64,000 nt of DNA, from NCBI GenBank assembly GCA_017551515.1, contig JAFZLK010000035.1:1-64000 (forward strand), given 5' to 3'. This document shows, piece by piece, positions 30,317-33,811 of this stretch (positions are counted from its first letter, which is position 1; each line of letters begins with the position of its first letter). Source of the DNA: Bacteroidales bacterium. Lineage in GTDB: Bacteria > Bacteroidota > Bacteroidia > Bacteroidales > ML635J-15. The notes beneath the pieces were generated by a model. That model worked only from the letters and a program-made list of their open reading frames with translations. It was not told where the DNA came from and made no database searches. The position numbers and the translations under genes are program-made.

Positions 30317-30510
30317 TATGAATAATTATTTCGAGCCTACTCTTCAAGGGATTTTCGGCTATTTTTCTCCCATAATTTTTCTAGGACAAATGTCCGCTAT
30401 TTATTTCAACATCACAAAGTTCTTGTTGGTTCTTGTTTCATAAGGCTCTTTTGCAAATCGGGAGTTCAGGACATAATAAAAATCGTGAACTCTTATTTTG
30501 TTTCTGAGGT

Positions 30511-30602
30511 CCTAGACTACCCGTTGCCACAAATTTAGAAAGCTCACGATTTCTCGCGAGCATTTCCGCCTTTTTTAAGTGGCAACGCCGAAATTGTCTA
30601 GG
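30511..30602. repeat. Structured palindromic element
   Basis: CCTAGAC (30511-30517) pairs with GTCTAGG (30596-30602), and GTTGCCAC (30523-30530) with GTGGCAAC (30579-30586), giving a long interrupted stem with an AT-rich apex that contains CTCGCGAG. A further arm (AAAATCGTGAAC at 30478) pairs imperfectly with GCTCACGATTT at 30542. It could be a small non-autonomous mobile element or a structured RNA. Confidence 0.5.
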
Positions 30603-30840
30603 TTTCAGAATTCTCCAAAAAAGCAAAAACGCCTTTTATATTTTAATTATCAATCAAATATCTGTTTTATTTCATTGGCAATTGTTTTTTATGTGTTATA
30701 CATAAGTGTTAAATTTCAGGGCAAAGATAGGAAAACGAATTGAAAGGTGAAAGTTGAAAGTTGAAAAAAATGAGGGTTAAAAGATTTGATGATTCAAGGA
30801 TTTGTTTCAAAGGTTCTGGTTGTTTGAAGTTGTTTGAGGG

Positions 30841-30909
30841 TGTTGGAGGGTGTTGGACGATTCGAAAAAACGGAATCAGATCTTGAAACAAGTTCAAGAT
30901 GACATTCCG
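30841..30909. repeat. 41-bp repeat copy A with REP-like hairpin
   Basis: Bases 30841-30881 are identical to 32544-32584 on the far side of the ATPase gene. The 3' part folds as a nested palindrome: ACGGAAT with ATTCCG outside, and ATCTTGAA with TTCAAGAT inside. Confidence 0.75.
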
Positions 30910-30964
30910 CTTTTTAGATTTGAGGTGGTTTGAGATTGTTTAATGAAAAAATAATATTCTTTTT

Positions 30965-30995
30965 TTTGTTGGTTTGGAAATGTATATTACCTTTG
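30965..30995 (+). promoter_or_regulatory. Promoter of the ATPase gene
   Basis: TTTG (30965-30968), 19 bp, TACCTTTG (30988-30995); perfect consensus, 39 bases before the start codon. Confidence 0.8.
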
Positions 30996-31034
30996 CAATA
31001 TAAATGATGATTTATATAAATACTGGTTTATATT

Positions 31035-32345
31035 ATGAAGTTTTACGGCAGGGAGAATGAAATAGAGATTCTGAAAAGGAACGAGATTAAGTCGCAGGAA
31101 AATGCAATGTTTACCATACTGAAAGGTCGAAGGAGAATTGGCAAAACATTATTGGTACTAAAAGCATTGGAAGGATGCGAATATGTCTATCTTTTTGTAC
31201 ACCGTGGTAACGAGAGCGCTCTATGCCGTTCTTTCCAGCAGGAAATTTCGTCAAGACTTGGCATTCCCATTTATGGCAACGCCTCTCGGTTCGCCGAGTT
31301 GTTCGAACTGCTTATGCGCGAATCAACAAAAAGGCATTTTACTGTCGTAATCGATGAAGTTCAAAACCTCAAGCATATCAACAGCGCAATATTCAGCCAA
31401 ATGCAGGATATATGGGACCGCTATCATAGGGAGTCGCACATCAATTTGATAGTATGCGGTTCGGTAAGGTCGATGATGAGACAGATTTTTGAAAATGCGC
31501 ACGAACCACTGTACGGCAGGGCAACATCAAAAATAACACTGCAACCTTTCAACATAGAGACAATCAAGCGCATAATGGCAGACTGTAATCCATCGTACAA
31601 ACCCGACGATCTGCTATGCCTTTATATGCTTACAGGTGGCGTAGCCAAGTACATAGAATTGCTGGCTGACGGTGGCAATATGGACAAGGACAGTATGCTT
31701 AAATACGCTTGTGGCAGGGACTCGTATTTCATAACGGAAGGCAGGGAAATGCTTATGGATGAATTTGCCTCCGACTACGACATGTATTTTTCAATACTCC
31801 ATCTTATAGCATCGGGCAAGACACGCGTTTCCGAAATTGATGGGGCATTGTCGAAACCGACAGGCGTATATCTTGCAAATCTTGATAAAAATTTCGAGAT
31901 GATTTCAAAGTTGCATCCCGTTATGCAAAAACCATCGGGCAAAGTGTCAAGATATGAAATCAGAGACCAGTTCTTGCGATTTTGGTTCCGATTTATATAT
32001 CCTTATCAAGGACTTATCGAAAGCGAGCAGCATTCTCTTCTGCTCAAGCAGATAAATGACGGATATGCACAGTTTTCGGGGAAAACCCTAGAGAAATATT
32101 TCCATGCCCAATATATGCAGTGCGGAAACTTTACGACAATCGGCAATTGGTGGAGCCGAACAGGTGACAATGAAATAGATATGCTTGCTATCAATAGTTT
32201 TGACAAGACTGGTATTGCCGCTGAAATCAAACGGAACAGGGATAAGATAAGTATTACGAGCCTTGAAGAAAAAATCGCTTCTTTGCCGTCAGATTTTAAA
32301 AATTACAAATTTAGTGCTATAGCACTTTCGCTTGAAGATATGTAA
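31035..32345 (+). CDS. AAA-type ATPase with C-terminal DUF234/PD-(D/E)XK-like domain
   Basis: The protein has 436 residues. It begins MKFYGRENEIEIL, then Walker A GRRRIGKT near residue 35, Walker B VVIDEVQNL near 105, and sensor-like ICGSVRSMM. A winged-helix section ends RYEIRDQFLRFWFRFIYPY. The C-terminal domain has NEIDMLA and AAEIKRN, spaced like the D and E-x-K of PD-(D/E)XK nucleases. This is the archaeal-type ATPase plus DUF234 architecture. The biological role is not established; such genes are mobile and often single. Here it stands alone between two copies of a 41-bp repeat, under its own promoter, which suggests acquisition as a unit. Confidence 0.85.
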   Translation: MKFYGRENEIEILKRNEIKSQENAMFTILKGRRRIGKTLLVLKALEGCEYVYLFVHRGNESALCRSFQQEISSRLGIPIYGNASRFAELFELLMRESTKRHFTVVIDEVQNLKHINSAIFSQMQDIWDRYHRESHINLIVCGSVRSMMRQIFENAHEPLYGRATSKITLQPFNIETIKRIMADCNPSYKPDDLLCLYMLTGGVAKYIELLADGGNMDKDSMLKYACGRDSYFITEGREMLMDEFASDYDMYFSILHLIASGKTRVSEIDGALSKPTGVYLANLDKNFEMISKLHPVMQKPSGKVSRYEIRDQFLRFWFRFIYPYQGLIESEQHSLLLKQINDGYAQFSGKTLEKYFHAQYMQCGNFTTIGNWWSRTGDNEIDMLAINSFDKTGIAAEIKRNRDKISITSLEEKIASLPSDFKNYKFSAIALSLEDM

Positions 32346-32818
32346 TTCGGCAACAACGGGTCGTTGCGCGAAACGACTTCCACAAATTGTCCCATTATCA
32401 AATTGGTTTATGGTTGGTTGAGATTGTTTAAGGTGGTTTGAGGTTGTTTGAGATTGTTTGAGATTGTTTGAGGTTGTTTATTGGCTTTTAGCCTGTTAGC
32501 CTTTTAGCCTGTTAGCCCTATAGTGTTTGAGATGGTTTGAGGTTGTTGGAGGGTGTTGGACGATTCGAAAAAACGGAATCAGATTGGCTACGCCGAGCTA
32601 AAGGTTCTGAAACAAGTTCAGGATGACATTCCGTTTTTTTATGTTGTTTCAAGTTGTTTGGTGTGGTTCATTTGTAGGGTCGTTGCGTGCAACGACACCC
32701 ACAAATTGTTTGATTGTTGTTTGGGTTGGTTTGAGACGCAATGAATTGCGTCTGTACGTAGAGATGGTTTCTCGTTATTTTGTTGAGATGTTGCAAGCAA
32801 CATCTGTCTTATTGTCCG
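32346..32818. repeat. 473-bp gene-free repeat-rich spacer
   Basis: It contains an 11-bp tandem repeat (GTTTGAGATTG and variants, 32405-32475), doubled GCCTGTTAGCC words (32490-32517), 41-bp repeat copy B with its interrupted hairpin (32544-32640), and four palindromes of the TTGC/GCAA family at 32360-32377, 32679-32696, 32734-32753 and 32787-32804. Two of these are followed by CCACAAATTGT. No coding frame looks real. Confidence 0.7.
32544..32640. repeat. 41-bp repeat copy B with nested insertion
   Basis: Bases 32544-32584 are identical to copy A at 30841-30881. A 22-base insert containing GGCTACGCC interrupts the hairpin, after which the palindrome resumes (CTGAAACAAGTTCAGGATGA, CATTCCG) and ends in a T run. 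Confidence 0.75.
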
Positions 32819-33811
32819 TTAGAACAATTTCTTGAATCCCATTATTTCGCGCATTTCGCGAACGGTCTTTCTGGCATTTTCACGGGCTTTCTCGGCGCCA
32901 CGAGCAACGGTGCGTTTCAAGAATTCGCTGTCGGAATCGATTTCCTTGATGCGCTCGCTGATAGGCTTTATTATTGCCACAATATCCTCGGCGAGTTGTT
33001 TCTTCATATCGCCATAGCGGATTTCACAGGTGTTGTACTTTTCGGTAAAATATGCAACTGTCTCGGGTGTCGAAACGGCTTTCATTATCGTGAAAAGGTT
33101 CTGTATCGGTTCGGGCATAGGTGAATTCGGTTCGGTTGGTCCGCTGTCGGTAACAGCCTTCATAACCTTCTTGCGGATAACCTTTTCATCGTCAGTTAGG
33201 AAAATGCCGTTGCCTTCCGACTTTCCCATCTTGCCTGTACCATCAAGACCCGGAATCTTAATGAGTTCGCCACCGAAATTGTAGGCCTGCGGTTCCTTGA
33301 AATACTCTACATTGAACATGGTGTTGAAACGGCGGGCAAACTTGCGTGTCATCTCCAAATGCTGTTCCTGATCTTTTCCAACCGGAACCTTGTCGGCATG
33401 ATGCATAAGTATGTCGGCCGCCATAAGCACAGGATAAGTGAGCAAACCTGCATTTACATTTTCAGGCTGCTTGCGGGCTTTTTCCTTGAAAGAACTTGTA
33501 CGGCAAAGTTCGCCAAGATAAGCGTTCATGTTCAACAACAGATACATTTCGCAAATCTCAGGCACATCGCTCTGAATATAAACCGTCGATTTTTCGGGGT
33601 CGATGCCACTTGCAAGGTATTCCACCAACACCTGACGCACATTGCGGTGCAGTTCCTCTGTTGCAGGATGCGTTGTAAGCGCATGATAGTCGGCAATGAA
33701 AAAATAGCAGTTGTTGCCTTCCTGCATCCTTACAAAGTTCCTTACTGCCCCCAGATAGTTGCCTAAATGAAGATTTCCCGTTGACCTGATTCCACTTAAT
33801 ACTGTATCCAT
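32819..33811 (-). CDS. trpS: Tryptophan--tRNA ligase
   Basis: The 330-residue class I synthetase has the HIGH-type motif HLGN (residues 15-18, TGNLHLGNYLG) and the KMSKS loop as KMGKS (194-198). Other blocks include FIADYHALTT and PVLMAADIL. Length fits bacterial TrpRS. It charges the tRNA-Trp encoded at 8142. It follows the S41 peptidase gene by 18 bases and is likely last in that minus-strand operon. Confidence 0.97.
   Translation of the reverse strand: MDTVLSGIRSTGNLHLGNYLGAVRNFVRMQEGNNCYFFIADYHALTTHPATEELHRNVRQVLVEYLASGIDPEKSTVYIQSDVPEICEMYLLLNMNAYLGELCRTSSFKEKARKQPENVNAGLLTYPVLMAADILMHHADKVPVGKDQEQHLEMTRKFARRFNTMFNVEYFKEPQAYNFGGELIKIPGLDGTGKMGKSEGNGIFLTDDEKVIRKKVMKAVTDSGPTEPNSPMPEPIQNLFTIMKAVSTPETVAYFTEKYNTCEIRYGDMKKQLAEDIVAIIKPISERIKEIDSDSEFLKRTVARGAEKARENARKTVREMREIMGFKKLF

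Follow-up and report, generated by a model that had tools for sequence, protein, structure and literature searches.

Two identical 41-bp repeats frame an ATPase gene in the 64,000-nt stretch of DNA analysed here (the window; contig C36 of G000, a 3.55 Mb draft assembly). It is quite probable that both belong to a single dispersed element, in which a terminator-like hairpin bears a CGTC-type REP at its apex, that they lie in fast-changing tracts, and that the ATPase gene was not mobilised. The REP core is nested within longer stems, recurs around different outer stems, has variant forms at orthologous gene ends, and is accompanied by a dispersed 21-nt insert. The twin repeats probably did not carry the gene. 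The coordinates are collected in Table 1.

Table 1. Positions of the features in the window and, for the IS-like ends, in other contigs of the same genome.
Feature	Position	Strand	Remarks
First 41-bp repeat	30841..30881	+	tandem decamers and left arm of composite palindrome A
Copy A, composite palindrome	30866..30915	.	outer arms AAAAACGGAAT / ATTCCGCTTTTT flank REP
CGTC-type REP core, copy A	30877..30903	-	TGTC tag (first T at 30904), 8-bp stem ATCTTGAA, loop CTTGT, tail CTG
Promoter-like TTTG-19-TAnnTTTG	30965..30995	+	conserved before paralogue too
ATPase_2 + DUF234 protein, 436 aa	31035..32345	+	PF01637 9.4e-18, PF03008 1.1e-12
10-nt tandem repeat tract (TTTGAGGTTG type)	32406..32479	+	
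Second 41-bp repeat	32544..32584	+	identical to 30841-30881
Copy B, composite palindrome	32568..32640	.	outer arms AAAAAACGGAAT / ATTCCGTTTTTTT; REP split by insert
21-nt micro-palindrome in REP arm	32585..32605	+	TGGCTACGCCGAGCTAAAGGT, between CAGAT and TCTGAAAC
trpS	32819..33811	-	convergent to ATPase; conserved sequence in relatives stops about here
IS-like end in REP core	C14:86-114, C15:7576-7604, C51:149171-149199, C61:41207-41235, C71:85-113, C115:106-134		G000

The 41-bp repeats and their composite palindromes

The initial annotation of the window had described a 41-bp perfect repeat, and the two copies are indeed identical over 41 nt, the identity breaking off at either end. When mismatches are allowed, the pair extends to 61 nt at 93%. 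The two are direct repeats, 1.7 kb apart, with the ATPase gene between them. On its left side, two fifths of the 41-mer are taken up by a 10-nt tandem repeat with further occurrences close by; the right part forms the left arm of a palindrome from a dispersed family. This family occupies 76 places in the genome (up to 3 mismatches), and an exact 33-mer within the 41-mer occurs only twice.

Both 41-mers run, as had been stated, into one and the same palindrome, which is split in copy B. Copy A was predicted to fold with −20.8 kcal/mol on the minus strand (z −5.67) and −17.2 on the plus strand (z −4.95), on either strand as an outer stem with an inner REP hairpin. For copy B, the values were −23.7 kcal/mol (z −4.10) on the plus strand, where a three-way junction is predicted, and −17.5 (z −2.55) on the minus strand. 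Copy B sits between the convergent ATPase and trpS genes and consists of a hairpin with a run of seven T, starting about 220 nt past the ATPase stop; it is terminator-like as judged by sequence. Copy A lies between divergent genes, so that a terminator would have no obvious role there. Neither copy appeared in a simple terminator scan, the loop limit of which was 8.

The left flank common to copies A and B was found, as an exact match, nowhere else in the genome, and the right flank of copy A resembles that of another copy (C119:59694). As the left flank of A matches B alone and its right flank a different copy, copying between the nearby tracts is suggested. In the simplest reading, the 41-bp identity would have come from such copying (gene conversion or local duplication). 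It may be noted that GTAG-type palindromes, GTAGGGTCGTTGCGTGCAACGAC and GGGTCGTTGCGCGAAACGAC, lie beside copy B at 32674-32698 and 32356-32390, and two REP kinds are thus present in one tract.

The REP core and its distribution

According to the consulted part of Di Nocera et al. 2013 (PMC3733652), CGTC REPs have a CGTC or TGTC tag, an 8-9 bp stem starting with AT, a loop of 4-5 nt and an unpaired tail mostly fitting CCA. They occur in many dispersed copies and as dimers, without a dedicated transposase, and in H. neapolitanus, A. variabilis and T. roseum they are nested within longer palindromes. In the window, both copies carry TGTC on the minus strand. The stem in copy A (ATCTTGAA / TTCAAGAT) is of 8 bp, begins with AT and closes a 5-nt loop, and that of copy B is split by the insert. 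An unpaired tail is present in the element but reads CTG.

The core, CAGATnCTGAAACAAGTTCAGnATGAC, was found at 76 places in the genome with up to 3 mismatches (46 forward, 30 reverse), against 2 for the backwards-read pattern used as the control. The copies are dispersed with complementary variants: the variable pair forms a Watson-Crick match in 54 of the 61 copies of this genome without insert or IS, and in 85 of 92 core copies taken from public genomes. A second REP-like unit lies within 70 nt in 40 of these 92 public copies, which fits the dimers described for CGTC REPs. The core's exact sequence strings were searched for in the open-licence literature, and no mention was found.

The exact core is present in at least 117 stretches of a public genome collection, and also in 19 viral-contig stretches. 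Among the 80 matches listed, the records are titled Bacteroidota, Treponema, Gastranaerophilales, Alphaproteobacteria, Methylotenera, Endomicrobium and Ignavibacteria, with several Patescibacteria, Dependentiae, Dehalococcoidia, Nitrospirae, Caldiserica and one Nanoarchaeota bin; these phylum labels are record titles, which in the case of metagenome bins need not be right for every contig. With the exact core in records titled with so many bacterial phyla, the agent that spreads it may cross deep boundaries.

In a separate observation, an IS-like end (TGTGTTAATTACCAAATATTTTTTG...) occurs six times in G000, in each case within a REP core and at least five times near a contig end (Table 1). It looks like an IS that targets this REP and whose body is absent from the assembly.

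Nesting at terminator-like outer stems

The 74 copies of the genome, less five cut by the IS, left 69 copies in which the outer stem was scored, with the left and right flanks re-paired 200 times as the control. A score of at least 8 was obtained for 32 of the 69, compared to 5.8 on average and at most 11 in the re-pairings. The remaining 37 scored below 8; hence nesting is not obligatory. The outer stems are of many kinds (AAAAACGGAAT/ATTCCGTTTTT, AATCCCGCTTAT, AATCCCCATTTC, TCTTCCTGCG, TCTCCTTTTT), and the composite with GGAAT/ATTCCG arms is represented by at least 18 distinct copies in the fetched loci of this genome. For 89 REP copies of other genomes, the outer stem was at chance level (1 copy scoring at least 8; control mean 0.37). 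This speaks against apex nesting as a general trait of the core, and nesting seems to be special to this genus or clade. We recognised no description of REPs at terminator apices in the open-licence literature.

Sister-species comparison at orthologous gene ends

Fourteen loci of the genome were compared with 90 orthologous flanks from 10 relatives, the best matches being taken, up to 7 per locus. When 260 nt were examined with up to 3 mismatches, a REP-like core was present in 33 of the 90 flanks and absent from 57. At two loci (L006 and L103), a neighbouring REP had been picked by the script. For eight loci with at least three REP sequences each, the outer arms paired better within than between species at seven (for example 12.6 vs 7.3 at L118 and 12.8 vs 9.8 at L095) and equally well at one.

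The REP was flipped relative to that of our genome at four loci: L118 (in G022), L095 (G016, G005 and G017), L031 (G023) and L014 (G017). The REP occurs in each of the eight L095 sequences, with one orientation shared by five and the opposite one by three, and the arms are matched in each yet different. G022 and G017 share their outer arms at L118 and have mutually inverted loops. L031 holds a plain REP in our genome, G022, G012 and G015, and an inverted REP with the micro-palindrome in G023; in G017, a short loop other than the REP is enclosed by the same outer stem (TTCTTCCTGC / GCAGGAAGAA), and G005 has neither stem nor REP. At L061, the REP is found in our genome, G012 and G015, and not in G002, G022 and G023; in G005 (L344) and G006 (L338), another palindrome, CCCTTCGACTACGCTCAGGG, replaces it in a like terminator stem. 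A tree of the trpS region groups our genome with G023, G022, G013 and G012, and polarised by this tree alone, the insert at L031 may be read as gained in G023. Single genes conflict with the tree; thus the segment on the L095 side is 95-96% identical to G002 and G016.

Among the known signs of template switching are homogenised arms and an inverted spacer, as given in the consulted part of PMC8604942. Template switching within the hairpin would keep the arms complementary while the loop flips; the covariation of the arms could also reflect selection on RNA structure. Arm covariation with loop inversion at orthologous sites would also be expected had the REP come first and the outer stems been extended outward from it, with template switching perfecting a quasi-palindrome, instead of the REP entering existing terminators. 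We regard such outward growth as possible but doubtful, because stems also exist without a REP (L031 in G017; L061 in G005 and G006, with the other palindrome), even though these could be losses or replacements.

The 21-nt micro-palindrome

Copy B had been annotated as split by a 22-base insert. The split is real; its length, as compared with REPs reading CAGA-TT-CTGAAAC, is best taken as 21 nt. The palindrome of the insert, GGCTACGCC, does recur in the window as had been claimed, on the plus strand at 32586 and 38421 and as the complement at 31638 (inside the ATPase gene) and 53020. In a genome search with up to 1 mismatch, the unit was found at 19 places in our genome and at 14-30 in each of four relatives, and nowhere with the backwards control. 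It lies in a REP arm at 12 of the 47 distinct places read, always at the same point, nine of the 12 being in our genome. Outside REPs, the units are often in AT-rich tracts and are in most cases flanked by TT dinucleotides; some follow one another in tandem at a spacing of 21 nt. The proposal that one small palindrome had moved into another is borne out as a kind of event (G023 has the insert at L031, the others do not) but not as something unique to copy B. With nine REP copies of the genome carrying it, the insert marks a shared subfamily, and no event peculiar to copy B is called for.

Short tandem arrays of the 21-nt unit were seen at L440, L195, L438 and L441. Their triplets differ but are self-complementary (AAC-TTC-GTT, GGC-TAC-GCC, AGC-TTC-GCT).

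Origin and spread of the element

In the mechanism that we favour, the composite would act as an RNA hairpin at gene ends, as the position of copy B between the convergent ATPase and trpS genes suggests, and REPs and smaller palindromes would be gained at the hairpin loop. A further, tentative proposal, which we hold with somewhat less confidence than we give to outward growth, is that the intrinsic terminators of this genus are breeding grounds for palindromes. The CGTC REP, which has the same sequence in many phyla, would enter the single-stranded apex and would then itself receive the 21-nt micro-palindrome at a TT site; template switching would go on flipping the loop and re-matching the arms, the apex serving as a landing site for transposase-free spread.

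It is unlikely that the elements are REPINs spread by genome-encoded RAYT (Y1) transposases. Seven Y1_Tnp matches are present in the genome, but none of the seven Y1 loci has the REP core, the tag is TGTC and not GTAG, and in the consulted part of Di Nocera et al. (PMC3733652) no CGTC repeats were found adjoining tyrosine transposases. Membership of the RAYT/REPIN class was rejected on the missing GTAG tag and the coreless Y1 loci; these loci also mean that no dedicated transposase flanks the core, as in CGTC REPs.

The ATPase gene and the trpS side

In the ATPase, both domains score above the Pfam cut-off. We take its DUF234 domain to be nuclease-like, and the promoter-like call upstream leans on what we take to be the Bacteroidales consensus. 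The protein has 16 matches in its own genome and at least one in 25 of the 41 genomes searched, and the gene would be a separate multi-copy gene. The closest paralogue (C28:56940-58247) is 91% identical in amino acids. Its homology spans 30928-32346 of the window and resumes at 30387 to about 30736, i.e., beyond copy A; the repeat tract between and after the homologous blocks is largely different, and no 41-mer is present at the paralogue. Therefore, the repeats are not the borders of what was duplicated, and the gene is stable within tracts that change quickly. The stretch kept beside the paralogue upstream of copy A (30387-30736) contains an inverted repeat around CTCACGATTTCTCGCGAG.

On the other side, the window sequence beyond trpS aligned in none of ten near relatives. 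In G013, DedA- and purF-like genes (named by reading) come after trpS; our genome has them on another contig. The trpS side is thus a synteny break.

The initial annotation had proposed that the ATPase gene was inserted or excised by recombination between the repeats. A cassette model, with homologous recombination between the 41-bp direct repeats bringing in or removing the gene, is, in our judgement, very improbable: perfect direct repeats 1.7 kb apart do frame the gene, the ten nearest relatives (trpS 97-99% identical in amino acids) have no ATPase match adjoining trpS, and the site is a synteny break, but the borders of the duplicated unit are not the repeats, as the paralogue homology runs past copy A where the 41-mer is missing, the repeat belongs to a genome-wide family, and the gene has no recombinase domain. 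The state with one repeat and no gene, for which related strains had been recommended, was not seen in these ten relatives, which are near but not conspecific, and none of 11 fetched trpS loci of relatives holds the REP core (up to 2 mismatches). The more distant G018 has a different ATPase of the superfamily (L202:4891-6303; 23% identity), convergent to trpS and about 33 nt from it, with no REP between.

Comparison with known systems

How CGTC REPs spread without a dedicated transposase is an open question, as far as the consulted part of Di Nocera et al. (PMC3733652) goes. The orthologous gene ends, at which the REP is present, absent, inverted, interrupted by a smaller palindrome or exchanged for a different one, are natural experiments on the gain, flipping and repair of palindromes and on the evolution of terminators, and the locus in the window illustrates how small palindromes stack inside one another.

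The kind of element is known; nesting at terminator apices, loop inversion and the 21-nt insert look new. The ATPase has both domains of the ATPase_2/DUF234 family, and nothing in the protein is unusual. Like REP-targeting IS elements (Tobes and Pareja 2006, PMC1525189), all six IS-like ends lie in a REP core, but the IS body is missing from this assembly. With GTAG REPs and REPINs, the element shares short dispersed palindromes in a genome that has Y1 genes; it differs in having no GTAG tag and no adjoining Y1 gene, the GTAG-type palindromes nearby (32674-32698) being of another kind. It resembles the CGTC REPs of PMC3733652, as described in the part consulted, in its TGTC tag, 8-bp stem starting with AT, 5-nt loop, unpaired tail, many dispersed copies and lack of a dedicated transposase. 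In contrast to these, its tail in our genome is CTG and not CCA, many different terminator-like outer stems surround it in one genome, and loop inversions and a 21-nt insert distinguish sister species.
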